Part shown: positions 11,332 to 30,501 of the stretch, piece by piece
Numbering within the stretch: the first letter of the stretch is position 1
Layout: every line of letters begins with the position of its first letter
NCBI GenBank assembly: GCA_023664345.1
Contig: JAMPFQ010000011.1
Location: forward strand, 56,382-120,381
DNA: 64,000 nt
Direction: 5' to 3'
From: Lachnospiraceae bacterium
GTDB taxonomy: Bacteria; Bacillota; Clostridia; Lachnospirales; Lachnospiraceae
The notes under the pieces: generated by a model
What the model was told of the DNA's origin: nothing
The model's database searches: none
The model's input: the letters and a program-made list of their open reading frames with translations, nothing else
Program-made: the position numbers and the translations under genes

Positions 11332-11364
11332 AGTGTGATATTATTTTTGAAAACGGGTGATATT

Positions 11365-11472
11365 ATGCGGAAATATGTTGACTTGACGAGTCATCAACCG
11401 AAAGGGACAAACTGGCAGAGTCGATCCAAGACTCTGCAGCAGGTATCCGCAAACAGCGGGCATGAGGCGTAA
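11365..11472 (+). CDS. Small ORF of 35 codons ahead of the PqqD-like gene
   Basis: ATG 11365 to TAA 11470-11472. GGGTGA lies upstream as a weak ribosome-binding site. The stop is 2 nt before the PqqD-like start at 11475, whose own GAGG site lies inside the end of this ORF, so the two are arranged for translational coupling. The peptide is hydrophilic, starts MRKYVDLTSHQPKGTN and ends SANSGHEA; it has no Cys and no hydrophobic core. An 8-bp perfect hairpin (GCAGAGTC 11415-11422 with GACTCTGC 11430-11437) lies within it, so the segment could instead be a structured RNA leader. It may be a peptide substrate for the PqqD-like protein, a leader peptide or an untranslated leader; the sequence alone does not decide. 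Confidence 0.45.
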   Translation: MRKYVDLTSHQPKGTNWQSRSKTLQQVSANSGHEA

Positions 11473-11474
11473 CT

Positions 11475-11744
11475 ATGGAAAAAAGGAACCGTTACCAGAT
11501 GCGCAAGGCAGCAGGCTTATTTTGGCTGCTTGATATGGAACAGGACGGTCCAGATTGGAAAGAACCTGCGGTCATGAATGAAAGCGGCGCGTATATCTGG
11601 GAAAGATATCAATGTCTGAAGTCGGAAGAAGCCGTGGCGGAAGAACTGTACAGGGAGCATGGGGTGCCTGTGCAGGAAGCCCTGGCGGATATCAGGCGCT
11701 TTTTGCGACAGCTTAAGGAACAGGGAATCGTTCCAGAGCAGTGA
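11475..11744 (+). CDS. PqqD-like peptide-chaperone (RRE-fold) protein, 89 aa
   Basis: The size and pattern (RNRYQMRKAAGLFWLLDME, then MNESGAYIWERYQ, then EEAVAEELYREHGVPVQEALADIRRFL) match the PqqD / RiPP-recognition-element fold, a small winged helix that binds precursor peptides for modifying enzymes. No radical SAM maturase is found nearby, which is unusual for a peptide-modification locus. The gene sits between a 35-codon ORF (2 nt upstream) and pelD (70 nt downstream), all in one direction. It might bind the small peptide, or it might be a PqqD-fold protein reused in exopolysaccharide control. The fold assignment is fairly secure; the role is unknown. Confidence 0.75.
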   Translation: MEKRNRYQMRKAAGLFWLLDMEQDGPDWKEPAVMNESGAYIWERYQCLKSEEAVAEELYREHGVPVQEALADIRRFLRQLKEQGIVPEQ

Positions 11745-11814
11745 TTTGCAGCATGGCTGGACAGACAGTGCGTGCGGTGCAGTTGTCTGCATAAAGGGGA
11801 ATGGAGCATAGGGA

Positions 11815-14388
11815 ATGGATTTTTTATTGGTGGGAAGCACAGGCAACCTGATGCAAAAGCTGATAGACAAATTGGATAAAGAAAGGCACAGGGTTTTTGT
11901 GCTGACGGAAGAGGGCAAGGAAGTCCCGGGTTATCGAAGAACTTTTGAAACATATCGTTTCAGCTACAATAATGCCTGCATCCGTGAAGTGTTCAACAGT
12001 GTGAAGCCGGATGTGACGATCTTTCTGGGGGCATATGACTGGAATTTCAACTGGGAAGGCAGGCAGAGTACGTCTGTTGATTATTCCTCGGCTATCCTGA
12101 ATATGCTGATGGCTTTTTCTGCCCAGCAAAAGGGAAAATTCATCTACCTGTCTTCAGAGGAAGTGTTCGAGGGTCTCAGCATCAATGAGAAAAATGTGGT
12201 CATAAACCGGACGGAACAGTATCCCAAGGCCCAGGCCATAGCCATGGGTGAGAAGATGTGCCTGGATTATGGTCGCATGGTGGATGGGACGGTCATGGTG
12301 TTGCGGCTGGATCATTTATATGGGATTCCTACCCGCCGGGAGGAGATTGACAATATCTGTGCCCGGATGTGCATGGAAGCCATAGACACGGGCGAAATCA
12401 CCATAGACGGCGACAAGGGAATCTATGTGGAAGAAGCGGAGGCGGCGGTGGAGACCATCGACCAGTCGCATTTCACGGTGGAAAAGGAGAAAGAGTTTTC
12501 TCCTGTGTATCTGGCTGACGCCGTGGAATATATTTATCAGGTGGCGGCGGCAAAAGAGTATAAACAATCCGTTTACCAGGTGTCCGGCAGCAGAGTAGTG
12601 ACCCAGGCGGAGCTCGCCGGCATGATAAAGCAGAACCTGCAGAAAGGGCCGAACGAGCAGAAAGCGTCTAAGAAGCAGAAAGAGCAGAAAGAATCGAAAA
12701 AGCAGAAAGAACAGAAAGAATCAAAGAAACAGAAAGAATCGAAAGAACAGAAGGAATCAAAGAAACAGAAAGAATCGAAAAAAAAGAAGCCGAAAGAGCA
12801 GAGCGAGCCGAAAGAACAGAAAGAATCGAAAGAGCAGAAAGCGCCAGGCGAACAGAAAGAACCGGAAAAAGATAAGGCGCCGGACGAACGGAAAGCACCG
12901 GGGATATCCGGGGAGATGAGGGAACCGGAAGAACTGGAAAAGACAAAAGGATCAGACGAGGACGGCGTTCAGATCGTGAATGCCCCGGAAAAAGGTGTGA
13001 ACAGTGTGGTCCTGTCCGGTCTCGCTTTCATGGAGGAATTTAATCTGAAGAGTTTTAACCCGCCCGGCAAGGTGATCCCCAAGCTGGTCGAGTATCTTCA
13101 GAAGAACGCGGCGCAGTTTTCCAGACGGTCGGATATGGAAGAAAGCCTGACAGAAAAGGTGAAGCGCGGGTTTAAAGAGATCGTAAGGCTTTTCATCCCT
13201 TTCCTGGAGAACATGATCATGTTTGTTCCCTTTTTCATGCTGAACAACAGGGCTGTGGGAAGCAAATATTTTACGCGCCTTGACTTTTATCTGCTGTATG
13301 TGCTGCTTTTTGCCATCGTCTATGGACAGCAGCAGGCTATCTTCTCCAGCCTGCTGGCCATCGCGGGCTACTGTTTCCGGCAGATGTACCAGAGAAGCGG
13401 TTTTGATGTCATGCTGGACTACAACACATACGTCTGGATGGCGCAGATCCTGATCCTCGGACTGGTAGTGGGATACATGAGGGACCAGTTGAAATCCATC
13501 CGGGAGGAACATGCGGGAGAGATACAGTTTTTGACGAAACAGCTGGCTGACCTGTCGGAGATCAACGGCAGCAACGTCAGGGTAAAGGATGTCCTGTCGG
13601 ATCATCTGCTGAACCAGAACGACAGCATGGGGAAGATCTATGAGATCACTTCCGAACTTGGCAGCTATCAGCCGGCGGAGGTCTTGTTCTATGCGGCGGA
13701 AGTGCTTTCCAAGATCATGCGGAGCAAAGACGTAGCAATCTATTCCGTGGCGAACCGCTCCTATGCGAGACTGTTTTCCGCCACATCGGACAGGGCGAGG
13801 ATCCTGGGGAATTCTGTGAATTATTCGGAGATGACGGAACTGTATGGGGCGATCCAGGAACATAAGGTTTATATCAATAAGAATATGACCGAGAAATATC
13901 CGCTGATGGCCAGCGCCATCTATGAGGGGGATGAGATGCAGATGATACTGATGGTCTGGGATATCCCCTGGGAGCGGATGACGCTGGGCCAGGCGGACAT
14001 GCTGGCAATCACGGGACATCTGATCCAGGACGCCGTGCTGAGGGCCAACCGCTATATGGCGGCATTGGAGCAGCAGCGGTATATCCAGGGGACTCATATA
14101 TTGGAACCGGAGGCTTTCGAAGAACTGCTGTCCGCGTTTATGCGTGCAAGGAGCCGGAACCTTACTACCTGTGCGCTGCTGAACCTTGATCCGGGAGAAT
14201 TGTCTCAGGAGGAGGTCAATGAGAAACTCGGCAAGCTGGTGAGGCAGACCGACTATCTTGGACAGGATTCCAAGGGGAAATTGCATGTATTGCTGGCCAA
14301 TACTGATGTGGAGGGAGCGCGGTTCGTGCAGAAGAGATTTGAAGATGTGGGCATGGGATGTCAGGTTGAGGAGGCGTTGGTGGTATGA
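11815..14388 (+). CDS. pelD: PelD-type c-di-GMP receptor fused to an N-terminal epimerase-like domain
   Basis: 857 aa. Residues 1-277 form an NAD-dependent epimerase-like Rossmann domain (LLVGSTGN nucleotide loop). Residues about 278-385 are a Lys/Gln/Glu-rich low-complexity run. Residues about 386-430 resume an epimerase-like C-terminus (VVLSGLAFMEEF). Four membrane helices follow (about 459-556), then a GAF domain (about 600-745) and a degenerate GGDEF domain (762-857). In the last, the active site is replaced by SKGKL (819-823) but the inhibitory-site motif RxxD is kept as RQTD (810-813), the arrangement by which PelD binds c-di-GMP. The expected Tyr/Lys of the epimerase active site are not visible (the aligned stretch reads PKAQAIAMGEK), so that domain may be non-catalytic. 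GGAG lies 8 nt before ATG 11815. The stop overlaps the pelE start by 4 nt. Confidence 0.85.
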   Translation: MDFLLVGSTGNLMQKLIDKLDKERHRVFVLTEEGKEVPGYRRTFETYRFSYNNACIREVFNSVKPDVTIFLGAYDWNFNWEGRQSTSVDYSSAILNMLMAFSAQQKGKFIYLSSEEVFEGLSINEKNVVINRTEQYPKAQAIAMGEKMCLDYGRMVDGTVMVLRLDHLYGIPTRREEIDNICARMCMEAIDTGEITIDGDKGIYVEEAEAAVETIDQSHFTVEKEKEFSPVYLADAVEYIYQVAAAKEYKQSVYQVSGSRVVTQAELAGMIKQNLQKGPNEQKASKKQKEQKESKKQKEQKESKKQKESKEQKESKKQKESKKKKPKEQSEPKEQKESKEQKAPGEQKEPEKDKAPDERKAPGISGEMREPEELEKTKGSDEDGVQIVNAPEKGVNSVVLSGLAFMEEFNLKSFNPPGKVIPKLVEYLQKNAAQFSRRSDMEESLTEKVKRGFKEIVRLFIPFLENMIMFVPFFMLNNRAVGSKYFTRLDFYLLYVLLFAIVYGQQQAIFSSLLAIAGYCFRQMYQRSGFDVMLDYNTYVWMAQILILGLVVGYMRDQLKSIREEHAGEIQFLTKQLADLSEINGSNVRVKDVLSDHLLNQNDSMGKIYEITSELGSYQPAEVLFYAAEVLSKIMRSKDVAIYSVANRSYARLFSATSDRARILGNSVNYSEMTELYGAIQEHKVYINKNMTEKYPLMASAIYEGDEMQMILMVWDIPWERMTLGQADMLAITGHLIQDAVLRANRYMAALEQQRYIQGTHILEPEAFEELLSAFMRARSRNLTTCALLNLDPGELSQEEVNEKLGKLVRQTDYLGQDSKGKLHVLLANTDVEGARFVQKRFEDVGMGCQVEEALVV
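12646..12969 (+). repeat. Low-complexity Lys/Gln/Glu repeat tract inside pelD
   Basis: The coding strand is made of variants of GAAAGAA and AAGCAGAAAGA, encoding KKQKEQKES-type repeats over about 100 residues. The clearest tandem part is 12655-12860. The tract interrupts the epimerase-like domain rather than sitting at a domain border. Such tracts change length by slippage, so strain-to-strain length variation is expected. Confidence 0.8.
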
Positions 14389-15512
14389 CAACTGCTGAAA
14401 AGGTTTTTTTGATCATCCTGCTGTTGAATACCGTTATCTCCATTGCGTATTTTGTTTGGGGATGCATGGTACAGGCAGTCCGGCCTGGAAAGCATGCCGC
14501 CCGGGGAAAGGCGAAGGGAAAGCCGGAAGCGGGCAGGACGAAAATCGGGGATACAAAAGCCGGGGGAAGTAAAACCGGTGAACCAACGACTGAAAACGCG
14601 AAAGAGGGAGAAGCCGGGAAAGGGAAAACAAACGAAGACACCGGATCGGAACAGGAAGAAGAGGAAAATGACTGGCCGGAGTGGAGGATGCTCAGCCGGA
14701 CAGGATACTTTTTCAAAGCCCTTGTGATGTTCTTATGTCCGGTGGTGGGCGTTCTGTTCTTCACGACCGTCCAGCTGATGTATGTATTGTTCTTCCGGAC
14801 CAAGGTCGATCTGACGGACGTTATCTTTGGCAAAGAGAAAGTGGTGGCAAACCGAAGAGCGGACGAGGAAAGTGAGAAGAACAGGGTACCCATAGAGGAA
14901 GCGCTGGCTGTGGCGGACAAGGAGAGCCTGCGTTCGCTGGTCATGGATGTGGTAAAGGGGGATGTCAAAAAATCCCTGGCCACGATTTCCCTTGCCCTGA
15001 ACAGTGAGGATACGGAGACTTCCCACTATGCGGCTTCCGTGCTGAGGGATGCTTTGAATGATTTCCGCCAGGAGGCGCAGGAGATATACAACGCGCTCCA
15101 CAGAGGTGATGACAGGGCGGCGGATTATGCCTGCATGCTGATAGAGTACATGAACCAGGTACTGAGCCAGGATGTTTTTCCCGAGATCGAGCAGCGCAGC
15201 TATGTGGACATGATGGAAGAGGCATGTACCTGGCTTTACAGGAGCGAGGAACACAGATACCGCCTGCAGTGCGAGTATATAGAATGGATTGCCGACCTGC
15301 TGCTGCGCCTGAAAGAATATGAGCGCATGGGCACATGGTGCAGCCGCTGTATGGAAATATATCCTGAGGAACTGACGAGTTATACGATCCAACTCAAGCT
15401 GTATTTCAGTATCCAGGACAGGGAGAAGTTCTTTGACACTATGAATCGGTTAAAGAAATCGGACGTCGTGATCGACAAGGATACATTGGATCTGATCAGA
15501 GTATTCGGATGA
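14385..15512 (+). CDS. pelE: PelE-like membrane protein with C-terminal TPR-like helices
   Basis: A 375-aa protein that overlaps pelD by 4 nt (ATGA), so the two are probably co-translated. Helix 1 is at residues 8-28, followed by a charged Gly/Lys-rich linker (about 35-95), a hydrophobic segment (about 108-135) and a long helical soluble region (about 165-375) with TPR-like helix pairs (RDALNDFRQEAQEIYNAL, ADYACMLIEYMNQVL). This is the architecture of PelE, a scaffold that works with PelD and PelG in polymer export. The assignment rests on topology and operon position more than on motifs. Confidence 0.75.
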   Translation: MTTAEKVFLIILLLNTVISIAYFVWGCMVQAVRPGKHAARGKAKGKPEAGRTKIGDTKAGGSKTGEPTTENAKEGEAGKGKTNEDTGSEQEEEENDWPEWRMLSRTGYFFKALVMFLCPVVGVLFFTTVQLMYVLFFRTKVDLTDVIFGKEKVVANRRADEESEKNRVPIEEALAVADKESLRSLVMDVVKGDVKKSLATISLALNSEDTETSHYAASVLRDALNDFRQEAQEIYNALHRGDDRAADYACMLIEYMNQVLSQDVFPEIEQRSYVDMMEEACTWLYRSEEHRYRLQCEYIEWIADLLLRLKEYERMGTWCSRCMEIYPEELTSYTIQLKLYFSIQDREKFFDTMNRLKKSDVVIDKDTLDLIRVFG

Positions 15513-15533
15513 CGGCGCGAAAGAGGATATGCT

Positions 15534-17354
15534 ATGGTATCACGCAGGAATTTTGTGACGATTACGATGCTGCTGCTGATCCTTACATTCATGTTCATGT
15601 TTACAGGGGTGATCAAGGAGGCATTGAATGAGTATGATGTCAACAGATTTGAAGACACGACGAAAACAGGGCTGACCGGGGAAAGCATGGTACGTGCGGA
15701 AGACCAAAAAAACGACGGCTTTGCGATTCCAAGGGAATACGTCCTGTTTGTGGGGTCGAAATATTCCCAGGACATCAGGGCAGTGGTGAGCAGCTGGTGC
15801 ACCTATACCAAGAGGGGGTATGAGGAATGTGAGTCCCTGGCGGATCATGCGATGCCGGAGGACGATCTCCCGGAAGTGGTGGTGGTGGACGGCCAGTATA
15901 TCGATGTGGACACGGAATTTCCGTTCATGCAGGAATTGACGGAGAAAGGGGTGCACCTGATCATGGCGCGGATGCCCCATCACCTGACCATGGCGGATCA
16001 TCCGGAGTTCTGCGATTTCCTGGGGATCAGGAGTGTAAGGAGAAGAGAGATACTGGTGGACGGCGTCCATTTGTTTGACGGCTTCCTGCTGGGAGGCGAG
16101 CGGATCTATGCGACGGAAATGGACGACGAATCCGGCCTCCAGGATCTGGAGATGGTGGTCCACTGGTATATGCTGGGCAGCGGCACCAAGACGTATGTCA
16201 TGGGGATGCTGGATGAGAATGAATATAAGAATGAAGAGATGCCGGCCATCGTCTGGAGGAAAAGCACGGGCAGCGCTTATATTTTCTGCGTGAATGCCAA
16301 TTATATGTCTAATATGTACGGCATGGGATTTTTGAGCGCCATGATGGCGGAAACGGACGTTTATGAGATCTATCCCATCGTCAATGCGCAGTGCATGACC
16401 GTGGCGGAGTTCTCCGCTTTCTCGGAAGATAACACGGAGGAACTGATGTCGATCTACAGCAGCAAGCAGCCCGCGTTATACGAGAGTGTGATATGGCCGT
16501 CCCTGATATCCGTTACCGAGAGGACGGGGGCGCATATGACGTTGATGGCAGCGCCGCAGCTGGATTACGATGATGGAAACGAACCGGACAATGCGCTGTT
16601 TCCACAGTACATGGCGCTTGTCAATGAGGAATACGGCGAGATAGGCGCTTCCATGGGAAGGGTTTCTGAGACCCCATTGGAAAACAAGATGTCAAGGGAC
16701 GTGCCCTTTTACATGGAGGGCGCGGATGGTTATACGATCCTTTCCATGTATGCGGAGGATCTGGACGAAGTGATGGAAGCACCCTGGGAGAAGTATTTTC
16801 CCAAGCTGCGGACTGTTGCCACCGCCCCGGACAGCGGCGCTCCGCCCATTGACTATCTGAGTCGGGATGTGACGCTGCAGCGGGCCACGGCCATTGGAAG
16901 AGAGCATCCCTACAGCGCGAACCTGGCGATTATGGGTTATGAGACAGCGTTGGGGTATTCCAACATTGTGCTGAACATGAAAGAGGTATCTTATCCGAAG
17001 AACGAGAAGGATTACTGGCAGAATCTGTCCCGGACGATCTCCCAGAATCTCTGCACTTACTGGAAAGATTATAAAGCTTTTACCCAGACGACGCTGGCGG
17101 AAAGCGATGCCAGGGTCAGGAGATTCCTTGCGCTGGATTATCGGACGGAAAGCAGCGGGGATCGAATCCTGCTGCACATAAATGAGTTTGAGGATTCCGT
17201 GTGGTTCCTTGTAAAACTCAATAATGGAAAACTGGGGGAGGTGCAGGGAGGCACTCTTCAGGAGATGGGCGGGGGGTATTATCTTCTGGAAGCAACAGAG
17301 ACGGAAGTGACGATCGATATGGGTTCCCCTGAAATGGAGTATTTCTATCGATGA
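15534..17354 (+). CDS. Membrane-anchored extracytoplasmic protein of the Pel operon (PelA position, DUF2194-like)
   Basis: 606 aa with one N-terminal helix (residues about 8-26) and a large predicted external region. It lies between pelE and pelF, where Gram-positive pel operons carry a PelA-type carbohydrate-processing protein. I see no clear carbohydrate-esterase-4 Asp-His-His triad, so deacetylase activity should not be assumed. The middle (residues about 20-270) looks like a flavodoxin- or ThuA-like alpha/beta domain (YVLFVGSKYSQDIRAVVSSW); the C-terminal third ends in a beta-rich module (LHINEFEDSVWFLVKLNNG). It may correspond to DUF2194. It starts 21 nt after pelE with an AGAGGA site. 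Likely part of the export and modification machinery; the reaction is unknown. Confidence 0.65.
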   Translation: MVSRRNFVTITMLLLILTFMFMFTGVIKEALNEYDVNRFEDTTKTGLTGESMVRAEDQKNDGFAIPREYVLFVGSKYSQDIRAVVSSWCTYTKRGYEECESLADHAMPEDDLPEVVVVDGQYIDVDTEFPFMQELTEKGVHLIMARMPHHLTMADHPEFCDFLGIRSVRRREILVDGVHLFDGFLLGGERIYATEMDDESGLQDLEMVVHWYMLGSGTKTYVMGMLDENEYKNEEMPAIVWRKSTGSAYIFCVNANYMSNMYGMGFLSAMMAETDVYEIYPIVNAQCMTVAEFSAFSEDNTEELMSIYSSKQPALYESVIWPSLISVTERTGAHMTLMAAPQLDYDDGNEPDNALFPQYMALVNEEYGEIGASMGRVSETPLENKMSRDVPFYMEGADGYTILSMYAEDLDEVMEAPWEKYFPKLRTVATAPDSGAPPIDYLSRDVTLQRATAIGREHPYSANLAIMGYETALGYSNIVLNMKEVSYPKNEKDYWQNLSRTISQNLCTYWKDYKAFTQTTLAESDARVRRFLALDYRTESSGDRILLHINEFEDSVWFLVKLNNGKLGEVQGGTLQEMGGGYYLLEATETEVTIDMGSPEMEYFYR

Positions 17355-17382
17355 AAAAACGTGATGTGGAAAAGGGCGTAAG

Positions 17383-18807
17383 ATGAAGATTTGTATTGTT
17401 GCAGAAGGCTGCTATCCTTATGTGGTGGGCGGCGTGTCCAGTTGGGTACACAGTATGATAAAGTCATTCCCGGATCAGGATTTTATCCTCCTGACCATTG
17501 TGGCGAACCGGTCTTACAGGGGGAAGTTTGTCTATGAACTGCCTGAAAATCTGCTGGAAGTCCATGAAGTGTACCTGGAAGACAGCGATTGGAAGAAAGA
17601 AGGAACGGCTGACAGGCATAAGCGTCTGGAGAAGCAGGAGTATGAGGCGCTTAAGAGCCTGCTGCTGAACCAGAATGTAAAATGGCGGGAACTGTTTAAA
17701 TTTTTTGCCAGCAAGAAGTTCTCCCTGAATGAACTGCTGATGGGGCCGGATTTCCTGAGAGCCGTGAAAGAATGTTATCAGATCCGCTATCCGGAAGTGG
17801 TGTTTTCCGATTTCCTGTGGACCATGCGCTCCATTTATCTGCCTTTGTTCCTGGTCATGGAGACGGATGTGCCAAAAGCCCATCTTTATCACTGCGTGGC
17901 TACGGGATATGCGGGAATCCTGGGCTGTATGGCCAGATATAAGCACAGAAGCCGTCTGATCATCTCGGAGCACGGCATTTATACCAGAGAGCGCGAGGAG
18001 GAACTGATCCGCGCAAAGTGGGTGGAGGGCATTTATAAAAACATCTGGATCGAGCAGTTTAAGAAGATGTCCCGGCTGGCGTACAGTGAGGCGGAACTGG
18101 TCACAAGCCTGTATGAACATGCCAGGGAACTGCAGGTAGAACTGGGATGCCCCAAGGAGATCACGATGGTGACACCCAATGGGATCGATGCGTCCCGTTT
18201 TGTGGTGACGGAGGATATGCAGCGCACACTGGATGAGGGGATGATCCATGTGGGCGCGGTGCTGCGGGTAACCCCAATCAAGGATGTGAAGACATTGATC
18301 AGGGCATTTTCGTTTGCGAAAGAGAAGGTTTCTGCCCTGAAACTCTGGATCATGGGTCCCACGGACGAGGATCCGAAATATGCGCAGGAGTGCGTGGATC
18401 TGGTACAGGCGCTGGAGGTCAAGGATATTGTCTTTACGGGTAGGATCAACGTGACGGAATATCTGTGGCAGATGGATATGACGATCCTGACCAGCATCAG
18501 CGAGGGGCAGCCCCTGACCATACTGGAGGGATACGCGGCCCATAAACCGGCCATAGCCACCGATGTGGGAAACTGCAGAGGATTGATCTATGGGGAGGGG
18601 GATTCTTTCGGCGCAGCGGGGATCCTGACCCATGTGATGAACGTGGAGGAGATCACGGCGGCGATCCTGGAACTGGCATACAGTAAGGAAAAGCGCGTGG
18701 AGATGGGAGAGAACGGCTACAAGCGCCTTATGGCAAAATATAAGATAGAGGATATGAGGAAGACATATCAGAAGATATACAGGGATATCGAGGACTGGCT
18801 TTATTAG
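17383..18807 (+). CDS. pelF: PelF-type glycosyltransferase, GT4 family
   Basis: A 474-aa cytoplasmic GT-B fold enzyme. The N-terminal motif MKICIVAEGCYPYVVGGVSS is characteristic of PelF. The C-terminal nucleotide-sugar domain carries the retaining EX7E signature in ISEGQPLTILEG (Glu374 and Glu382). PelF polymerises the Pel backbone from UDP-activated N-acetylhexosamine. It starts 28 nt after the preceding gene and is followed 18 nt later by pelG, its expected membrane partner. Length and motifs are normal for the family. Confidence 0.93.
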   Translation: MKICIVAEGCYPYVVGGVSSWVHSMIKSFPDQDFILLTIVANRSYRGKFVYELPENLLEVHEVYLEDSDWKKEGTADRHKRLEKQEYEALKSLLLNQNVKWRELFKFFASKKFSLNELLMGPDFLRAVKECYQIRYPEVVFSDFLWTMRSIYLPLFLVMETDVPKAHLYHCVATGYAGILGCMARYKHRSRLIISEHGIYTREREEELIRAKWVEGIYKNIWIEQFKKMSRLAYSEAELVTSLYEHARELQVELGCPKEITMVTPNGIDASRFVVTEDMQRTLDEGMIHVGAVLRVTPIKDVKTLIRAFSFAKEKVSALKLWIMGPTDEDPKYAQECVDLVQALEVKDIVFTGRINVTEYLWQMDMTILTSISEGQPLTILEGYAAHKPAIATDVGNCRGLIYGEGDSFGAAGILTHVMNVEEITAAILELAYSKEKRVEMGENGYKRLMAKYKIEDMRKTYQKIYRDIEDWLY

Positions 18808-18825
18808 CCGGGAACAGGAGGAACT

Positions 18826-20328
18826 ATGGCAGGATTAGGGGTACGTCTGAACCGGATCTACGAAAAGGGCGGCATTACAATGAATCTGCTGGGCTTTGGG
18901 TACAGCATGGTGGTCACCGTTGCGCCCATGATGGTGGTCATTGGAAATATTATGCTGATGAGTATCGTGCTGGGATATGATAAACTGGGATATGTGGACA
19001 GGAATCTTTTTTCCGCTACGATACTGTATATCTTCATTTTTGCCCTGCTGACGGCGGCGCCCCTGAACGCGGTACTGTCCCGGTATATTTCCGATGTGAT
19101 CTACGAGGAACATTATGAAGATATCATGCCCTGTTATTATGCGGGACTGGCCCTGAACATTGTCCTGAGCAGCCTGCTGGGCATACCTTTCTGTGTGCGG
19201 GAATATCTGGTGGGAAATGTGGCGCTGCATTTTGTGTTCACCGGGTACTGTGGGTATATCGCGCTGGTACTGGTGTTCTATTCCATGCTGTATTTATCTA
19301 TCTGCAAGGATTACGCGAAGATCTCCCTGTATTTTTTCGCAGGCATGCTGCTGGCCTTTGTGATCGCGGTAGTGCTGGTCATGGTGCTGAACGCCGGGCT
19401 GACCTACAGTATGCTGCTGTCCCTGAGCCTGAGCTTTTTGCTGACGGCGGTGCTGGAGATGTCAACAATCCGACGTTATTTTAAACGGAACAGCAACCGT
19501 TATAAAAAGGTATTTCAATATTTTAAAAAATACTGGAAGCTGGTAGTGGTCAATACAGGATACACGCTGGGACTGTACATCCATAATTTTGTGTTCTGGG
19601 ACACGAGGATGCGGATGGTGGTGGCTGATTCTTTCGTAATGGCGCCGATCTATGATATGGCTACCTGTCTGGCCATGTTTACAAACATTTCCGCCACGGT
19701 CATCTTTATCTCCAGGGTAGAAATGCATTTTCACGGACGATATAAGGTATATTCGGAGGCGGTCACGGGCGGCCGATGGCAGGACATCATCAACACCAAG
19801 AACCGGATGTTCCGCCAGCTGTCGCGGGAAGTCCAGAACCTGGTGCGCATACAGTTCATCATATCCATCGTACTGTATCTGCTGATGCTCGTGTTCCTGC
19901 CCAGGCTGGGTTTTTCCGGAACGGTACTGAGGATCTACCCCTGTCTCGCGGCGGGGTATTTCATCCTGTTTGTCATGTATTCGGAAATAATATTCCTGTA
20001 TTATTTCAATGACCTGAACGGGGCAGTGCTGACTTCCATGGCATTCTGCATGGTCACTCTGCTGGGAAGTCTGATTTCCAGGAACCTGTCGGAGATCTGG
20101 TATGGCCTGGGGCTGCTGCTCAGCAGTTTCATCGGGCTGACGACGGCATACATGCGGATCCGCTGGGTGGAGAAACATCTGGATGAACATGTGTTCTGCC
20201 GGGGCGTTCTGTTCCCGTCCGGCAAGGGAAAGAAGCCGGATTCCAAAGTATATGACTGGCGGAAAGCGCGTAAGAAGCTGGTGGATGAAAACTGGCTGTA
20301 TGGGCTGGGTGACGATGCGTCTTCTTAA
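18826..20328 (+). CDS. pelG: PelG-type polytopic membrane protein (exopolysaccharide translocation)
   Basis: 500 aa with about twelve hydrophobic helices and a MATE/MOP-like layout. The N-terminal segment (GVRLNRIYEKGGITMNLLGF) and the short cytoplasmic tail rich in Lys/Trp match PelG, which with PelD, PelE and PelF forms the membrane synthase and export complex. AGGAGG lies 6 nt before ATG 18826. It is the last core pel gene; a GC-rich hairpin follows, and further polysaccharide genes resume 90 nt later. Confidence 0.9.
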   Translation: MAGLGVRLNRIYEKGGITMNLLGFGYSMVVTVAPMMVVIGNIMLMSIVLGYDKLGYVDRNLFSATILYIFIFALLTAAPLNAVLSRYISDVIYEEHYEDIMPCYYAGLALNIVLSSLLGIPFCVREYLVGNVALHFVFTGYCGYIALVLVFYSMLYLSICKDYAKISLYFFAGMLLAFVIAVVLVMVLNAGLTYSMLLSLSLSFLLTAVLEMSTIRRYFKRNSNRYKKVFQYFKKYWKLVVVNTGYTLGLYIHNFVFWDTRMRMVVADSFVMAPIYDMATCLAMFTNISATVIFISRVEMHFHGRYKVYSEAVTGGRWQDIINTKNRMFRQLSREVQNLVRIQFIISIVLYLLMLVFLPRLGFSGTVLRIYPCLAAGYFILFVMYSEIIFLYYFNDLNGAVLTSMAFCMVTLLGSLISRNLSEIWYGLGLLLSSFIGLTTAYMRIRWVEKHLDEHVFCRGVLFPSGKGKKPDSKVYDWRKARKKLVDENWLYGLGDDASS

Positions 20329-20352
20329 GGTCTGAAACAGTCTCGGAACGAA

Positions 20353-20372: not shown

Positions 20373-20417
20373 GTAGTGCAGAGACGGAACTAAAATGGAA
20401 AGAGATGGGGGTGCGTT

Positions 20418-20789
20418 ATGGAAATGGCAAGGATAGCGGGAATCGTCCTGACCGTGTTGGGGGCGATGCTCCTGGTCGGAAGTTTTACGGCGTATGCGCG
20501 CCGCAAGCTCACAGAGGATTTCGGCATGATATGGGTGATCGTAGCGGTCTGCTTCCTGGGGGGGGGAATCGTGCTGATCGCGATGGGACAGAGTGTCACC
20601 GCATTGTTTGTTGTAACGGTCTTTCTGGGCGTGCTGCTGGTAGCGGGACTGTTTGGATTCAGCAGGGTGATATCCATTCTGGTCATGAAGAATCAGGAGC
20701 TTGCCATGCAGGTGTCGCTGCTGAACCAGGAAAATGAAAGTTTTATCCGTATGTTTACAGCGAAAAAGGAAGAAAATACCCATGAGTAA
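20418..20789 (+). CDS. Small DUF2304-like membrane protein
   Basis: 123 aa with three hydrophobic helices (about 5-22, 33-55, 62-82) and a short coiled-coil tail (KNQELAMQVSLLNQENESF). The pattern, including RRKLTEDFGMIWVIVAV after helix 1, matches the DUF2304 family, which is usually encoded beside GT2 or GT4 glycosyltransferases in cell-surface polysaccharide loci and is thought to help lipid-linked sugar transfer. Its stop overlaps the next gene start by 8 nt, so the two are coupled. The biochemical role is not established. Confidence 0.7.
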   Translation: MEMARIAGIVLTVLGAMLLVGSFTAYARRKLTEDFGMIWVIVAVCFLGGGIVLIAMGQSVTALFVVTVFLGVLLVAGLFGFSRVISILVMKNQELAMQVSLLNQENESFIRMFTAKKEENTHE

Positions 20790-21990
20790 GAGAGTCCTGT
20801 TTGTCATAAATACGCTGGGGCATGCAGGGGCGGAGACTGCGCTCCTGGAATTGTTGGAGAGGCTGAAGGACAGCTGTGAGATTGACCTTTATGTGCTGTT
20901 GGGACAGGGGGAGATGGCGGCAAAGCTTCCGCCGGGCGTGCATCTTTTGAACAGGCGTTTCAATGATTGTTCCGTCCTTTCTGCCAGAGGCCGCCTGCAT
21001 ATGGCGGGTACGGTCATGAAAGCCTTTCTCTGCCGCGCAGCGGGGATACGCCTGCTCCCCTACCTGTGTCGAAATTTCTTTGCGATGCTGGGACAGCACA
21101 GGGTGCAGGCAGATAAGCTACTCTGGAGGGTTCTGTCGGACGGCGGTATGCGCCTGAATCAGGAATATGACCTGGCGGTGGCGTTCATTGAGGGCGGCTC
21201 CGCGTATTATGTGGCTGACCATGTGAAAGCAAGAAAAAAGGCCGCTTTCATACATATCGACTATGAACAGGCGGGATATACCAGGGAACTTGACAGGGAC
21301 TGTTATCTGCGGTTTGATGCAATCTTCCCCATAGCGGAGGAAATCAGGGACAGGCTGTTAAAGGTTTACCCTGAATGTGCTGACAGGACGAGAGTCTTTC
21401 ACAATCTGATCAACAGGGACAAAATCCTGGAGAAAGCAAAAGAGGGGGAGGGCTTTACGGATGGCTATCAGGGGACAAGGATTCTGACGGTCGGGAGGTT
21501 GACACGGCAGAAAGCGTATCCTGTCGCCATTGAGGCCATGAAGCTGCTGAAAGCCGGTGGATGCCGGGCCAGATGGTATGTGCTTGGGGAAGGGGAAGAG
21601 AGGCGCACCCTGGAGAAAAAGATCGGGGAATACGGCCTGGAAGAAGATTTTGTCCTTATGGGGGCGGTCGAGAATCCGTTTCCTTATTACAAGCAGACAG
21701 ACCTTTATGTCCATGCCACCGGTTTCGAGGGAAAGAGCATTGCCATACAGGAGGCGCAGATCCTTGGATGCGCGATCATCGCTTCAGACTGTACGGGAAA
21801 CAGGGAGCAGATCGTTCATGGGACGGACGGTCTCTTATGTGATCTGTCCCCCCAGGCAGTGAAAGATGCCGTGTTAAGATTGATCGAAGATAGCGGGCTG
21901 CGTGAAAAGCTGAAGCATGCGGCGGCCTGTAAAAGAATAACTTATGAGGAAGACATCAGACTTTTGACGGAGATACTGGACAGTGATTAA
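20782..21990 (+). CDS. Glycosyltransferase, GT4 family
   Basis: A 402-aa GT-B enzyme. The N-terminal nucleotide-fold segment is KRVLFVINTLGHAGAETALL, and the C-terminal donor-binding signature is EX7E in FEGKSIAIQEAQ (Glu316, Glu324). ATG 20782 is chosen because it lies inside the coupled overlap with the preceding gene; an upstream ATG at 20734 only extends through that gene's tail. It should transfer a sugar from a nucleotide donor to a lipid-linked or growing glycan. Donor and acceptor cannot be predicted. Confidence 0.9.
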   Translation: MSKRVLFVINTLGHAGAETALLELLERLKDSCEIDLYVLLGQGEMAAKLPPGVHLLNRRFNDCSVLSARGRLHMAGTVMKAFLCRAAGIRLLPYLCRNFFAMLGQHRVQADKLLWRVLSDGGMRLNQEYDLAVAFIEGGSAYYVADHVKARKKAAFIHIDYEQAGYTRELDRDCYLRFDAIFPIAEEIRDRLLKVYPECADRTRVFHNLINRDKILEKAKEGEGFTDGYQGTRILTVGRLTRQKAYPVAIEAMKLLKAGGCRARWYVLGEGEERRTLEKKIGEYGLEEDFVLMGAVENPFPYYKQTDLYVHATGFEGKSIAIQEAQILGCAIIASDCTGNREQIVHGTDGLLCDLSPQAVKDAVLRLIEDSGLREKLKHAAACKRITYEEDIRLLTEILDSD

Positions 21991-21999
21991 AAGGGAGAG

Positions 22000-22794
22000 A
22001 TGGATGTGAAATACGGGGAACAGAAAGATTTGCTGATTATTATGCCGGCATATAACGAGGAACAGAATATACCTGAGGTGTTGAAGCAGCTTTCCGCGCC
22101 GGAGATAAAAGAGATAGCGGATGTGCTGGTGATGAATGACGCCTCTTCGGATTCCACGAACTGGATCGTAAAGAAGCAGGGCTTTAAACTGGTGACGAAT
22201 GTCTTTAACCTGGGTTACGGCAGCGCCATCCAGCTGGGGTATAAATATGCCGTCCGCAGGAAATATAAATACATCATCCAGATGGACGCAGACGGGCAGC
22301 ATGACGTCTGTAACATTCCCTCGCTGTACAGGACGCTGCGGATGCCGGGGGCAGGCGGCGAGTGTCCTGATATCGTGCTGGGTTCCCGTTTCATGGAAGG
22401 AAGCGGTGATTTTCCCATATCACTGTCCAAGAAGATCGCTTACGCATTGTTCAGGCGCTGCATCAGGATGACCACGGGCCGATGGATCTCCGATCCCACC
22501 ACAGGCCTGCAGGGACTGAGCAGCCGGGCGGCGTTATTTTATTCCAAGTTCGGCAATTTCGACAACAAGTATCCCGATGCCAATATGCTGATCCAGATGC
22601 TGCTGCTGGGATATCAGGTAGTGGAAGTGCCCGCGGTGATGCATAACAGGAGCCATGGCGTCAGTATGCATTCCGGATTGAAGCCGTTTGTCTATATGTT
22701 CCGCATGATGTTCTCCATCATGGCGGTGGTTTTCCGGATCAAGGTCTTACATATCGGGACAGGAGCGAAGAAAGATGATATTTTTTTCCAATAA
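22000..22794 (+). CDS. Glycosyltransferase, GT2 family (polyprenyl-phosphate glycosyltransferase-like)
   Basis: A 264-aa GT-A enzyme resembling dolichol/undecaprenyl-phosphate hexosyltransferases. It opens with LLIIMPAYNEEQNIPEVL and has the metal-binding DAD at residues 96-98 within QMDADGQHD. No C-terminal pair of transmembrane helices is present, so it resembles the soluble DPM1-like subtype and may rely on the nearby DUF2304-like protein for membrane association. The start is ambiguous: ATG 22000 is close to GGGAG, while GTG 22006 has better spacing. It overlaps the next gene by 20 nt. Confidence 0.88.
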   Translation: MDVKYGEQKDLLIIMPAYNEEQNIPEVLKQLSAPEIKEIADVLVMNDASSDSTNWIVKKQGFKLVTNVFNLGYGSAIQLGYKYAVRRKYKYIIQMDADGQHDVCNIPSLYRTLRMPGAGGECPDIVLGSRFMEGSGDFPISLSKKIAYALFRRCIRMTTGRWISDPTTGLQGLSSRAALFYSKFGNFDNKYPDANMLIQMLLLGYQVVEVPAVMHNRSHGVSMHSGLKPFVYMFRMMFSIMAVVFRIKVLHIGTGAKKDDIFFQ

Positions 22795-24040
22795 GGGCAT
22801 GCCTGCTTTCCGACAGGAGAAGTTCCGCGAGACGCCGGGCAATGTATTGAATCCCGGAAGGGGCTGGTACCGCATTTATACCTATGCCCTGACGGAAGAC
22901 GGACAGTATGAACTTCCTCCGGCGCTGTATGACGGGGAGACGCTTGCGCTGGTGCTGATCGACATCAGCGCGTATCAGGAGCGGCCCATATCCGATCAGG
23001 GTCTGTCTGATATGGACCGGATCCTGGGGTGTTTTGCCGAAAGCGGCCGGGAGATGATCCTGCGGGTGGTTTATGATACGGCGGGCAGAGGGATGGAGCA
23101 TGAACCCGCTCTTTTTTCCCAGGTGCAGCGGCATATGGAACAGATGGCGCCGCTGCTGGTGAGATACAGTGATCACATTTTTGTTTATCAGGGGCTGCTT
23201 GTGGGAAGCTGGGGGGAAATGCACACCTCGAAATTTGTATCGGAAAAATACCTGCGGCAGCTGGCAGAGAACTTTTTCTTCCTGACAGAGAACAGGTTAA
23301 AGCTTGCGGTAAGAAGACCGGTGCAATACCGTCTGATCCAGGGGGTTGAGTGCGAGAGGCTGCCCTTGACGGGCTGTTTTGACGATGCCATATTTGCATC
23401 GGAAACCCATATGGGGACCTTTGGCATCCAGGAGAGGCAGGAGGCGGGCTGGGATGGCCCGTGGTGTCCGGAGGAGGAAATCCGGTTTCTGGAGAAGCTG
23501 GCGGAAAAAGTCCCGTTCGGAGGCGAGGTCTTAAGCGGGGAGGACGGCATGGCAGCGGCGGATGCGGTGCGCCGGCTCAGCGGGCTCCATGTCAGTTACT
23601 TAAACTGCGTGCACGAGGAAGCAAGGCTTAAAGAGTGGCGTGAGACGGAATACGCTCCGGGGATCAGCCTCTATGACTATATAGGCGCGCATTTGGGCTA
23701 TCGGTTTGTGGTGGAGAAAGCCGTGTGCGAGAGGAAGAAAAAGGAAGCCCATCTGGCGGTGAAAGTCGCCAACCGCGGTTTTGCCTGCTGTACGGAGGAA
23801 TTACAGTTTATCCTATGCCTGCGGCGGGGAGGAGAGGAACGCCAGATCCCTGTTGACTGTGGATTAGGGAAGCTTGAGGGAGGCAAGAGCATGACGCTGC
23901 AGATTCCTCTGGAAGAAGAAATGCAGCGGAGAGGGACATGTCTTTACGGAAGATTACAGCGGGTGAGGGACCGGCGAGTGATAGCCTTTGCCAACGAAGG
24001 AGCTGGTGAGAGCCTGTTGCTGGGGAGTTACGGTGATTAA
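22775..24040 (+). CDS. DUF4832/DUF4874-type protein (predicted TIM-barrel), cytoplasmic form
   Basis: 421 aa without a signal peptide or membrane segment. It has the family hallmarks NPGRGWYRIY near the N-terminus, QGLLVGSWGEMH in the middle and a beta-sandwich-like C-terminus. DUF4832 proteins resemble glycoside-hydrolase barrels, but their activity is unknown. A second family member, with a membrane anchor, is encoded at 30502-32010 and shares the NP(G/N)RG and QGL.(V/I)G.WGEM motifs. AGGAG lies 9 nt before ATG 22775, which is inside the end of the preceding gene. Probably a glycan-acting protein of this locus. Confidence 0.75.
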   Translation: MIFFSNKGMPAFRQEKFRETPGNVLNPGRGWYRIYTYALTEDGQYELPPALYDGETLALVLIDISAYQERPISDQGLSDMDRILGCFAESGREMILRVVYDTAGRGMEHEPALFSQVQRHMEQMAPLLVRYSDHIFVYQGLLVGSWGEMHTSKFVSEKYLRQLAENFFFLTENRLKLAVRRPVQYRLIQGVECERLPLTGCFDDAIFASETHMGTFGIQERQEAGWDGPWCPEEEIRFLEKLAEKVPFGGEVLSGEDGMAAADAVRRLSGLHVSYLNCVHEEARLKEWRETEYAPGISLYDYIGAHLGYRFVVEKAVCERKKKEAHLAVKVANRGFACCTEELQFILCLRRGGEERQIPVDCGLGKLEGGKSMTLQIPLEEEMQRRGTCLYGRLQRVRDRRVIAFANEGAGESLLLGSYGD

Positions 24041-24123
24041 TGTCCTTGCAAGCTGCTGTGGTGTTCGCGCGTATATTTTGGCGATATGGATTTATCTTGG
24101 TGAGAGTTGAGGATGAAAGCATA

Positions 24124-25140
24124 ATGCACCTGAAAGATGATATGGATCAGCAGATAGATTTTGTGATTACATGGATAGACGGACAGAACGAGGCATGGCG
24201 CAAGGAAAAGAGCATGTTTCAACCTGACAGGCGCGATGATGACCAGGAGGCGCGTTACAGGGATTGGGGATTATTGAAATATTGGTTTCGAGGAGTGGAC
24301 AAGTTTGCGCCCTGGGTAAGAAAGATTCATTTCATCACATGGGGATATGTGCCGGAGTGGCTCAATACCGGAAATCCCAGGCTGCACGTGGTCCAACATA
24401 AAGACTATGTCCCGGAACAATACCTTCCCGTTTACAATAGCAATGTCCTTGAGATATATATGCATAGGATCGAGGGATTGGCGGAGCATTTTGTGTATTT
24501 TAATGATGATATGTTCTTGATTCGCAATGTCAGGCCATCTTACTTCTTCCGTCACGGACAGCCTTGCGATATGCTGGCATTTCAGCCTGTGGTGGCGAAT
24601 CCTGCGAATCCGCTGATGTCCCATCTCTATTTAAACAATACACTGGCATTGTCTAGGCATTTTGTGAAGCGAGAAAATATACGGCGACAGCCGGGAAAAT
24701 ATTTTAATCTCAGGTATCCGCCCCTGTACTTCTTTTATAATCTGCTGGAACTGGCCTTTCCGCTATATACGGGTTTTTACACAGTGCACGGGCCTTCACC
24801 TTTCTGTAAGAGTACCTTTGAGGAAGTATGGGAAAAAGAAAGGGAAGCTTTGGAAGAAATGTCGTTTAACAGATTTCGGAGCGAGGGCGATCTGACCCCA
24901 TATTTGTTCAGGGAATGGCAGAAATTGTCAGGGCGCTTTTATCCCTGGAACATACGAAAGGATTTTCGCTATTTTGGCGTGGGTAGTGATAATACAAGAT
25001 TGCTGCGCACGATTTCAAGGCAGAGGAAGAGAGTGATCTGTATAAATGACACGGTTTCACATAGTGAATTTGAGAGCGCCGACACCCAGCTAAAAGCGGC
25101 TTTTCAACAGATACTGCCGGAGAGATCAGCCTTTGAATAG
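24124..25140 (+). CDS. Stealth-family hexose-1-phosphate transferase (capsular polysaccharide synthesis)
   Basis: 338 aa from ATG 24124. The four conserved Stealth regions are visible: CR1 with IDFVITWIDGQNEAWRKEK, CR2 with ARYRDWGLLKYWFRG and VRKIHFITWGYVPEWL, CR3 with the FVYFNDDMFL segment and SHLYLNNTLALSRHF, and CR4 near GDLTPYLFREWQ. Stealth enzymes transfer sugar-1-phosphate from a nucleotide sugar to make phosphodiester-linked glycans. An ATG at 24040, overlapping the previous stop as TAATG, would add 28 atypical residues; 24124 has GAGGA 10 nt upstream. AT content rises from here on, compared with the genes before. Confidence 0.87.
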   Translation: MHLKDDMDQQIDFVITWIDGQNEAWRKEKSMFQPDRRDDDQEARYRDWGLLKYWFRGVDKFAPWVRKIHFITWGYVPEWLNTGNPRLHVVQHKDYVPEQYLPVYNSNVLEIYMHRIEGLAEHFVYFNDDMFLIRNVRPSYFFRHGQPCDMLAFQPVVANPANPLMSHLYLNNTLALSRHFVKRENIRRQPGKYFNLRYPPLYFFYNLLELAFPLYTGFYTVHGPSPFCKSTFEEVWEKEREALEEMSFNRFRSEGDLTPYLFREWQKLSGRFYPWNIRKDFRYFGVGSDNTRLLRTISRQRKRVICINDTVSHSEFESADTQLKAAFQQILPERSAFE

Positions 25141-25159: not shown

Positions 25160-26716
25160 TTGAGTGAGAACAGTAGAACGGAGCATTCCGCACGTAATGC
25201 CACAGTAGCAGTGGTGGCAAAGATTATCGCCATATTGGCAGGATATGTAACCCGGGTAGTGTTCACTCACACGCTCAGCCAGGATTATGTGGGGATTAAC
25301 GGATTACTCACCAATATCTTGAATGTGCTGGCATTATCAGAACTCGGTGTAGGAACAGCAATCACCTATGCGCTGTATCTTCCAATCTCAAGACGGGATG
25401 TGGAAAAGCAGAAAAGCCTGATGCGGATGTACAGGCATTTTTACAGAATCATAGCTGTGATTGTGTTAGTCTGCGGGCTGCTGGTGATTCCTTTTTTCGG
25501 AAAGCTGATAAAAAACCAGCCGGATGTGGATCATCTGGTTTTGATCTATCTCTTGTATTTGCTGAATTCTGTGCTGTCATATCTGTTGATTTATAAGAAA
25601 ACGCTGATAGAGGCACATCAACTCAGTTATATTGTCACTTTATATCAGACGGTTTTTTTGCTCCTGCAGAATCTGGTGCAGGTAACGGTTCTCGTACTTA
25701 CCGGTAATTTCCTGCTTTTCGTGACAATACAGCTGGCGTGTACGCTGGGAAATAATCTTAGTATCTCCCGCAAAGCTGACAGAATGTATCCCTATCTGAA
25801 AGAAAAAGAAGTACAGAAGTTGCCGGAGAATGAAAAAAGGTCCATTTTTCGCAGCATCAGGGCAATGCTGATGCACAAGATAGGCAGTGTAGTGGTAAAT
25901 GATTCAGATAACCTGTTACTGTCCGCAATCGTCGGAATTGTCAGCGTCAGCAAATACTCAAATTATTTTTTGGTGATTGGCTCCGTCCGTCAGGTACTGG
26001 ATCAGGCTTTTCAGGGCATTACGGCCAGCGTTGGCAACTTGGGAGTAGAGGAGGGCAGGGAGCGAATCAGGAAAATATTTGAATCCTCTTTTTTTATGGG
26101 ACAGTGGATGTTTGGCTTGACAGCCATATGCCTTTTTGAACTCTGCGATGTGTTCGTGGAGATCAGCTTTGGCCCTCAGTATGTATTTCCGCGCAGCGTG
26201 ACGCTGATTCTGTGTCTGAATTTTTATCTCACGGGGATGCGTCAGCCCGTATTGGTATTTCACGACTCCATGGGGTTGTTTTGGTATGATCGGTATAAAT
26301 CGCTTGCGGAAGCGTTGATCAATTTGACAGCGTCCATTATATTGGGGAAATACTGGGGAACTTTCGGCATTTTCCTGGGGACAATGGTCAGTACGATAAC
26401 GACTTCTTTTTGGGTGGAGCCTTTGGTATTGTATAAGTATCGTTTGGAAATGCCGGTTCGTGGGTATTTCTGCAGGTATGGTCTATATGCAGCGGTTACT
26501 TTTGGAATCTGGCAGGCGATCGATTTTCTGTGCGGCTGTATTACTGGTGGATTGTGGAAAATATGTTTTCTCAGATCGATTGTGTGCCTGCTGGGAGTGA
26601 ATGCAGTATATCTGTTGATATATCACAGGACCAGGGAATTTCGACTGCTGGCACAAAAAGCACGGAAGATCATACAGGACAGGCAAACACAGCGTCATGC
26701 CAGAAAAGGAGTATAG
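25160..26716 (+). CDS. Polysaccharide flippase-like membrane protein (MOP/PST type)
   Basis: 518 aa with about twelve to fourteen membrane helices. The opening segment (VAVVAKIIAILAGYVTRVVF) and the conserved GINGLLTNILNVLALSELGVG stretch are typical of oligosaccharide flippases in Gram-positive capsule loci. It should move lipid-linked glycan units to the outer face of the membrane. A TTG start at 25160 is chosen, with GGAGGA 6 nt upstream. It is distinct from PelG, so the locus has two translocases and probably makes two polymers. Confidence 0.85.
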   Translation: MSENSRTEHSARNATVAVVAKIIAILAGYVTRVVFTHTLSQDYVGINGLLTNILNVLALSELGVGTAITYALYLPISRRDVEKQKSLMRMYRHFYRIIAVIVLVCGLLVIPFFGKLIKNQPDVDHLVLIYLLYLLNSVLSYLLIYKKTLIEAHQLSYIVTLYQTVFLLLQNLVQVTVLVLTGNFLLFVTIQLACTLGNNLSISRKADRMYPYLKEKEVQKLPENEKRSIFRSIRAMLMHKIGSVVVNDSDNLLLSAIVGIVSVSKYSNYFLVIGSVRQVLDQAFQGITASVGNLGVEEGRERIRKIFESSFFMGQWMFGLTAICLFELCDVFVEISFGPQYVFPRSVTLILCLNFYLTGMRQPVLVFHDSMGLFWYDRYKSLAEALINLTASIILGKYWGTFGIFLGTMVSTITTSFWVEPLVLYKYRLEMPVRGYFCRYGLYAAVTFGIWQAIDFLCGCITGGLWKICFLRSIVCLLGVNAVYLLIYHRTREFRLLAQKARKIIQDRQTQRHARKGV

Positions 26717-26718
26717 CG

Positions 26719-30472: not shown

Positions 30473-30501
30473 AACAGCCTGTGTGATGGATGGGAGGAGC
30501 C

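Follow-up and report, generated by a model that had tools for sequence, protein, structure and literature searches.

The pel core and its surroundings

The window analyzed here is a 64,000-nucleotide stretch of the genome of a Lachnospiraceae bacterium (GenBank assembly GCA_023664345.1, contig JAMPFQ010000011.1, positions 56,382 to 120,381 of the forward strand; the genome, with an estimated completeness of 100%, totals 3.88 Mb across 47 contigs). It carries a gene cluster of the Pel exopolysaccharide type, in which the protein at the PelA position, referred to below as PelA*, is a homologue of the deacetylase PelADA that has lost the known catalytic residues, and in which the pel genes are followed by a set of genes with an apparent capacity for side-chain glycosylation. 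The core genes pelD, pelE, pelA*, pelF, and pelG occupy positions 11815 to 20328 of the forward strand in the table of open reading frames (Table 1). The pelD and pelE frames overlap by 4 bases and the subsequent gaps are 21, 28, and 18 bases, so that the gene order reported in an earlier sequence-only reading of this DNA, prepared without database searches, is borne out. That reading also took the operon to be a complete one of the Pel type, which holds for pelD, pelE, pelF, and pelG (the adjacent PelF and PelG are both recognized by curated models) but not for PelA.

The five genes are only the core of a longer run of closely spaced or overlapping genes that extends from 11475, the start of a gene for a PqqD-like protein, to 32010. 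The borders of the operon rest on gene spacing because promoter- and terminator-like signals gave nothing usable: both strands of the 11250-21000 segment contain 7 promoter-like sites, compared to 8.9 in shuffled sequence, and 11 terminator-like sites, somewhat above the 6.8 (standard deviation, 2.6) seen after shuffling. Neither a c-di-GMP (cyclic di-GMP) riboswitch nor any other Rfam RNA was found within 9500-33000 at E values of up to 0.5.

Table 1. Features of the pel locus, with positions in the window
Feature	Position	Strand	Basis or remark
PqqD-like small protein	11475..11744	+	70 bases 5' of pelD; Pfam PqqD 49.2 bits, cut-off 23.4
pelD, 857 aa: degenerate SDR/epimerase domain, KE-rich linker, membrane segment, cytoplasmic region with C-terminal degenerate GGDEF	11815..14388	+	
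PelD I-site (inhibitory site) RxxD, Arg810-Gln-Thr-Asp813	14242..14253	+	conserved among PelD rows
PelD degenerate GGDEF signature SKGKL (residues 819-823)	14269..14283	+	
PelD Arg841, candidate third c-di-GMP ligand	14335..14337	+	position like B. cereus R395 / P. aeruginosa R402
pelE, membrane protein, 375 aa	14385..15512	+	position; homologues likewise placed in other pel loci; two hydrophobic peaks
pelA*, 606 aa, membrane-anchored PelADA homologue (DUF2194) without known catalytic residues	15534..17354	+	DUF2194 57.9 bits
Catalytic Asp-Asp position in pelA*, now Ala291-Glu292	16404..16409	+	residue alignment
pelF, glycosyltransferase (GT) family 4 polymerase, 474 aa	17383..18807	+	NCBIfam PelF equivalog NF038011 370 bits, cut-off 100
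pelG, exporter, 500 aa	18826..20328	+	Pfam PelG PF16933 485 bits, cut-off 29
DUF2304-type small membrane protein (GacJ-like)	20418..20789	+	window copy E 0.1, 13.3 bits, cut-off 25.5
Second GT4 glycosyltransferase	20734..21990	+	Glycos_transf_1 96.4 bits; PglJ-like 89.8 bits, cut-off 500
GT2, polyprenyl-phosphate sugar synthase type (GacI-like)	22000..22794	+	PpgS 68 bits, cut-off 370
DUF4874/DUF4832 protein without N-terminal membrane helix	22775..24040	+	Pfam match
Stealth-type sugar-phosphate transferase	24040..25140	+	Stealth_CR2 145 bits
Wzx/MATE-like flippase (GacK-like role)	25160..26716	+	MatE 15.5 bits, cut-off 24.9; 9 hydrophobic peaks; homologues in related loci
NTP_transf_5 nucleotidyltransferase frame	26530..27927	+	144 bits; true start probably after 26716
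GT-C-type membrane glycosyltransferase (GacL-like role), TM833, 833 residues	27971..30472	+	profile comparison with PMT_2
DUF4874/DUF4832 protein with N-terminal membrane helix, probable secreted glycoside hydrolase	30490..32010	+	DUF4832 179 bits

Two sets of loci were used for comparison. Among 299 genomes of the same family, 53, including the window genome, encode a PelG match; 48 stretches from 47 of the other genomes served as comparison loci (five genomes, namely G228, G090, G092, G177, and G214, and another site in G107 do not figure among the fetched loci). The second set consists of the best 80 loci by PelF likeness (at least 80 exist), chosen without a motif criterion. Among the matches listed, the loci nearest to the window by PelF likeness come from records titled Blautia, Acetatifactor, Lachnospiraceae, and Agathobacter.

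Loss of the PelADA residues in one clade and the adjoining putative glycosylation genes

PelA* has a single hydrophobic helix at its N terminus (residues 9-27) that would serve as a membrane anchor. A single-sequence search of PDB with this protein returned nothing useful, and profiles were needed to place it. The profile of the window class matches the profile of intact PelADA proteins with an hhalign probability of 99.9% (E value of 3e-33, 462 columns), so the homology covers the carbohydrate esterase domain of the CE26 family. Because the catalytic and metal-binding residues are gone, PelA* is filed here as a pseudo-enzyme homologue and not as a member of PelADA. The intact class carries the DDF motif and HGYNH, and its profile matches the solved chain 9zau with an E value of 1.2e-99. 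The catalytic residues of PelADA have been defined in Bacillus cereus (PMC13254593); the B. cereus numbering was mapped to chain 9zau, an entry named putative membrane protein, by an offset of 25 that was counted by hand.

Residues were compared in 142 PelA proteins: 33 intact ones, 3 second copies, and 106 of the window class, window included; some loci of the two sets are probably identical contigs, so these 106 rows do not amount to 106 independent genomes. Asp262, His350, His354, Arg458, and His488 are present in all 33 intact proteins and in none of the 106, and three further residues are retained in a minority of the window class: Asp263 (33/33 in the intact proteins versus 18/106), Pro405 (33/33 versus 7/106), and Asp491 (29/33 versus 10/106). 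Since the classes had been sorted by two motifs, DDF and HG[YF]xH, only the columns of Pro405, Arg458, His488, and Asp491 are independent of the sorting. The scaffold columns are shared, with a Trp in 33 intact and 106 window-class proteins, a Pro in 30 and 105, and a Glu in 33 and 101, respectively. The window protein itself has Ala291, Glu292, Ser373, Val377, Glu408, Ala451, Asn481, and Glu484 at the eight PelADA sites checked, although the alignment is gapped near MT2, where the exact partners are unsure and a second alignment differs at His354. Among the 74 PelA proteins longer than 450 residues in the best 80 PelF-picked loci, none combines the strict DDF and HG[YF]xH motifs; a looser count (any HxxxH plus any DDF) had given 1 of 74 and was discarded. 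Locus L053 lacks PelA altogether; locus L066, with its A genes in pieces, is treated as intact by motif in the tree and module counts and is excluded from the residue counts.

Despite these losses, pelA* is maintained under purifying selection. Its ratios of nonsynonymous to synonymous substitution rates (dN/dS) against loci L096, L097, L098, and L099 are 0.10, 0.13, 0.14, and 0.22, whereas pelD yields 0.09, 0.07, 0.09, and 0.13 and pelF 0.06, 0.07, 0.08, and 0.11 in the same four pairs. Such low values rule out the decay of pelA* as a pseudogene. What is being preserved is a protein without the known catalytic apparatus, which, judging from its residues, is very likely to be devoid of PelADA activity.

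Three loci (L064, L065, and L082) have tandem pelA genes that encode an intact PelADA beside a second copy, which is counted separately in the residue comparison. The second copies have lost one Asp, both metal-binding His residues, and the acid His while keeping the other Asp and the Arg; their sequences are close to the intact kind, and they represent a separate decay of the same enzyme. The frames that contain PelG in these loci span 1086-1091 residues.

A branch supported at 100/98 in a 48-row PelF tree separates off all 28 rows in which the PelA motifs are lost. The tree was extended by 17 rows, 16 of them from other families, to 65 rows (L186, with a short pelF piece, and L194, with no pelA in the stretch, dropped out), using a quick method without bootstrap. 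When rooted on three distant rows, it places the 31 lost rows, window included, in a single clade nested within the intact ones, with an SH-like approximate likelihood ratio test value of 100.

The same clade carries the additional putative glycosylation genes. By score thresholds applied to the fetched stretches, the GT-C-like protein is encoded in 29, the GT2 in 27, and the DUF2304 protein in 24 of the 31 lost-motif loci, and none of the three in any of the 34 intact loci. Conversely, a CotH-type gene is present in 18 of 20 intact loci of the same family versus 1 of 27 lost ones, and the CotH, PPP, and DUF4956 genes are absent from the window operon. Across the 299 same-family genomes, the GT-C protein was detected in 32 and PelA* (E value below 1e-20) in 31, all of which encode both, on one contig in 30 cases and on separate contigs in one genome (G025). 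The only genome with GT-C and no PelA* (G275) is 77% complete, and its match of 210 residues starts at base 5 of the contig. In three loci from another family of the order (L177-L179, of which two are nearly identical), the core encloses the module, in the order DUF2304-pelD-pelE-GTC-GT2-pelA*-pelF-pelG, and in L085 and L093 the GT-C and GT2 genes are found between pelE and pelA*. As the class has a single origin, these counts speak for linkage and joint inheritance and not for repeated convergence.

One locus, L052, had appeared to be a member of the class without the module, which was rejected when the GT-C gene was located in the respective genome (G019), 165 bases beyond the stretch. This locus is a hybrid that combines a dead PelA with CotH, PPP, and DUF4956 genes as well as GT-C.

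A GT2, a DUF2304 protein, a Wzx-type flippase, and a GT-C enzyme make up the set by which the group A carbohydrate receives its side chains (PMC8327497, PMC8035078). In the pel-associated genes, DUF2304 matches 19 of 20 aligned homologues of the small membrane protein at E values of up to 1 (best, 3.1e-23). The model of the polyprenyl-phospho-GalNAc (N-acetylgalactosamine) synthase PpgS matches all 24 GT2 homologues (best E value, 1.3e-29), as do the AglJ and dolichyl-phosphate transferase models. TM833 itself exceeds no Pfam cut-off, and it and its relatives have no Pfam family in common: nine families were hit, each in one of 18 members, with the best E value of 0.0032. In profile comparison, however, this group matches the GT-C family PMT_2 (hhalign probability of 95.7%, E value of 8.8e-9, 221 columns), while the Wzx-like set and PelG, used as controls, reach 0.6% and 1.7%, respectively. 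The invariant residues of TM833 (Asp192, His196, Trp199, Tyr214-Pro215, and His219) are located in a Lys/Arg-poor loop that follows a hydrophobic helix, as expected of the outer loop of a GT-C enzyme. By analogy with the group A carbohydrate set, the genes acquired by the operon look able to attach sugar side chains.

The PqqD-like gene and the NTP_transf_5 gene share this polysaccharide operon, and a PqqD-like gene is found within 700 bases 5' of pelD in 21 of 66 PelF-picked loci and 6 of 43 same-family loci. Of the two DUF4874/DUF4832 copies, the downstream one is anchored (with the helix present in 43 of 48 homologues), and the upstream one lacks the helix, which is found in none of its 66 homologues. 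This seemingly cytosolic relative of a Pel hydrolase is kept beside GT2 across the class. In Streptococcus intermedius, the DUF4832-domain protein SIR_1591 is an active hydrolase (PMC12345266).

PelD as a candidate c-di-GMP receptor

The sequence-only reading had pointed to RQTD in the RxxD position of PelD, five residues ahead of a degenerate SKGKL signature, and both motifs are indeed found at residues 810-813 and 819-823, respectively. Window PelD combines a degenerate GGDEF domain with intact I-site residues (Arg810, Asp813, and, as a candidate third ligand, Arg841). These three residues are retained in 45 of 46 PelD rows, the 46th being an N-terminal half only; in the 67 rows formed by the window and 66 PelF-picked loci, Arg810 is conserved in 66, Asp813 in 67, and Arg841 in 64. 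A single-sequence PDB search with the C-terminal half of PelD gave nothing useful, so that a profile (19 regions) was needed; it matched diguanylate cyclase-type chains weakly (best E value, 0.0036) and in register, with the RxxD column aligned to the RQSD that precedes by five residues the GGEEF of the diguanylate cyclase chain 3ign (E value of 0.011).

Arg841 of the window protein is found 28 residues after Asp813, which is close to the spacing of Arg395 in B. cereus PelD (29 after Asp366) and Arg402 in Pseudomonas aeruginosa PelD (32 after Asp370) (PMC7112168). The B. cereus protein binds c-di-GMP with a dissociation constant of 103 nM, and changing Arg363, Asp366, or Arg395 abolishes both the binding and biofilm formation (PMC7112168). 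A search of the genome for diguanylate cyclases, which had been suggested as a check, found 17 GGDEF matches, at least 7 of them with the [GSA]G[DE][EQ]F signature (by regular expression on the longest frame per locus), along with 9 EAL matches. The proposed c-di-GMP control is therefore upheld as far as the alignment of the I-site and its near-invariant residues go, and window PelD is a probable c-di-GMP receptor, with binding itself predicted from sequence.

An NAD-epimerase-like domain (Epimerase, 41.9 bits) with an altered dinucleotide motif occupies the N-terminal third of PelD. The third Gly of this motif is missing in the window, and in 63 of the 67 rows the position is occupied by Met, Ile, Thr, or Leu, the four most common residues. 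A degenerate SDR domain has been described for clostridial PelD (PMC7112168), in agreement with the window; PelD proteins have also been sorted in a four-class scheme (cited in PMC12345266). No GAF domain was found in a Pfam scan of window PelD. Its Lys/Glu-rich linker is encoded by an 18-base tandem repeat at 12639-12901, and the protein, with 857 residues, is longer than most of its 66 PelF-picked relatives (723-757 residues).

Proposed decoration in place of de-N-acetylation and comparison with known systems

The explanation that best fits the locus, to which a probability of about 0.5 is assigned, is a c-di-GMP-gated chain of the Pel family with a pseudo-enzyme PelA* and with extracellular decoration in place of de-N-acetylation. 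In the proposed mechanism, c-di-GMP would be sensed by the I-site of PelD, which together with PelE would switch on PelF; PelF would polymerize the Pel-family backbone for export by PelG. PelA*, having kept the PelADA scaffold and the membrane anchor, would probably receive and steer the emerging chain without de-N-acetylating it. The GT2 and its DUF2304 partner may load a sugar, perhaps GalNAc, onto polyprenyl phosphate, the Wzx-type flippase would turn the polyprenyl-linked sugar outward, and the GT-C protein would attach it to the chain outside the cell. Decoration of the chain by the module, an argument by analogy, has an even chance of being correct, and it is the linkage and co-occurrence of the genes that suggest the Pel chain as the acceptor. 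The broader proposal is slightly more tentative: in a clade of gut Lachnospiraceae and their neighbors, the deacetylase may have become a conserved pseudo-enzyme and charge may have been exchanged for built-in glycosylation, resulting in an uncharged glycosylated Pel under c-di-GMP control.

The cationic polymer envisaged in the sequence-only reading finds no support here, because charged Pel requires de-N-acetylation and all eight PelADA sites examined are altered in PelA*. The charge could still be provided if the operon were an ordinary one and another deacetylase of the genome acted in trans. PelF and PelG, normal by the curated models, and eight matches to the generic deacetylase domain PF01522 elsewhere in the genome are consistent with this possibility. 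However, PF01522 domains are widespread, being present in 11 of 14 control genomes, the intact-PelADA profile searched against the genome at E values of up to 1 finds only the window gene itself, and in B. cereus it is the activity of PelADA that is required: when deacetylase activity was missing, neither B. cereus nor P. aeruginosa yielded detectable Pel (PMC13254593). Deacetylation in trans is accordingly unlikely. A pocket repurposed for another modification is less likely still. Newly conserved residues at the old active site, namely Asp at the position of the acid His488 (95/106), Ser at His350 (83/106), and Asn at Asp263 (72/106), could mean a new activity, in line with the purifying selection; on the other hand, both metal-binding His residues are gone, one alignment suggests a shortening of the segment that follows MT2, and in the window protein Glu292 and Asn481 occupy two of the newly conserved places. 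That the locus is decaying and has no product is highly improbable: Whitfield et al. left open whether Roseburia-type operons work (PMC7112168), but the frames of the window are open, eight genes have dN/dS values of 0.02-0.17 against L096, and at least 80 related loci are found under many record titles.

A further alternative, doubtful but weightier than the preceding ones, posits two polymers from one locus, with PelDEA*FG making undecorated poly-GalNAc and the GT2, DUF2304, GT-C, Stealth, and Wzx-like proteins making a separate capsule or wall glycan. The Stealth, nucleotidyltransferase, and Wzx-like genes of the operon fit such a division, and the Roseburia cluster resembles one for a capsule or teichoic acid in the view of Whitfield et al. 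(PMC7112168); the placement of GT-C and GT2 between pelE and pelA* in five loci and the presence of pelA* in 31 of the 32 same-family genomes with this GT-C argue against it. Besides the PF01522 matches and the new conserved residues, several observations weigh against decoration of a Pel chain. Motif loss and module gain fall on one branch, which makes their association a single event, and Fisher's P value of 2.4e-41 for the co-occurrence of GT-C and pelA* ignores descent. The identities of the module proteins also leave room for doubt: the DUF2304 copy and the flippase of the window score below the Pfam cut-offs; the window GT2 is below the equivalog cut-offs, and the processive synthase family PgaC/IcaA likewise matches 24 of 24 GT2 homologues. 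The GT-C profile, itself built from pel-adjacent genes, finds no significant chain in PDB (best E value, 0.24) and matches YfhO, another GT-C family, at only 13.1%, compared to 93.2% for YfhO against the same PMT_2 set. Finally, the operon also contains Stealth, a further GT4, and additional genes of the capsule type, so that the module might serve to make or modify a different polymer.

With these points taken into account, the decorated Pel-family chain remains the preferred explanation, and it can be compared with the systems described so far. The pelDEADAFG operon of B. cereus ATCC 10987 and its clostridial and streptococcal relatives (PMC7112168) have the same gene order, a single-pass anchored PelA without a hydrolase domain, and a degenerate GGDEF domain with RxxD and a third Arg. 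PelA of the window lacks the catalytic Asp-Asp pair, HxxxH, Arg, and His of PelADA; PelD has a degenerate SDR domain, as in clostridia and unlike in B. cereus; and the GT2, DUF2304, GT-C, GT4, Stealth, and Wzx-like genes take the place of CotH, PPP, and DUF4956. The S. intermedius pel cluster (PMC12345266) shares the degenerate SDR domain of PelD and a DUF4832 hydrolase encoded within the cluster; it differs in that its PelD has no GGDEF domain and its accessory genes are of the CotH kind, and its polymer is thought to be mostly uncharged GalNAc (PMC12345266). The GacI/GacJ/GacK/GacL module, which serves the group A carbohydrate (PMC8327497, PMC8035078), has four components for each of which the window set contains a candidate, but the window set adjoins a Pel synthase instead of a rhamnan pathway, and its flippase and DUF2304 matches fall below the cut-offs, as noted above.

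A published counterpart is the larger pel cluster of Roseburia, in which DUF, GT1, GT2, PTase, and NTase genes likewise accompany the pel core and whose product may have no relation to Pel (PMC7112168). It very probably belongs to the same class as the window, because Roseburia-titled loci such as L107-L109 are members of that class. Fusicatenibacter saccharivorans (L155) is another named member. In the published account (PMC7112168), its A gene was called PelADA and the product was left open. The available parts of PMC7112168, PMC13254593, PMC12345266, and PMC7112194 contain no description of a catalytically lost PelA class or of the side-chain module, nor does any title or abstract opening among the listed matches on DUF2194, DUF2304, or Pel in Lachnospiraceae and Roseburia describe the lost class. 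The presence of pel genes in gut commensals should not by itself be equated with a cationic, DNA-binding matrix. In this natural clade the protein persists although its catalytic residues are gone, a hint that de-N-acetylation is separable from synthesis and export, and whether Roseburia-type clusters make Pel or another polymer becomes a question that can be put to the test with a few assays.

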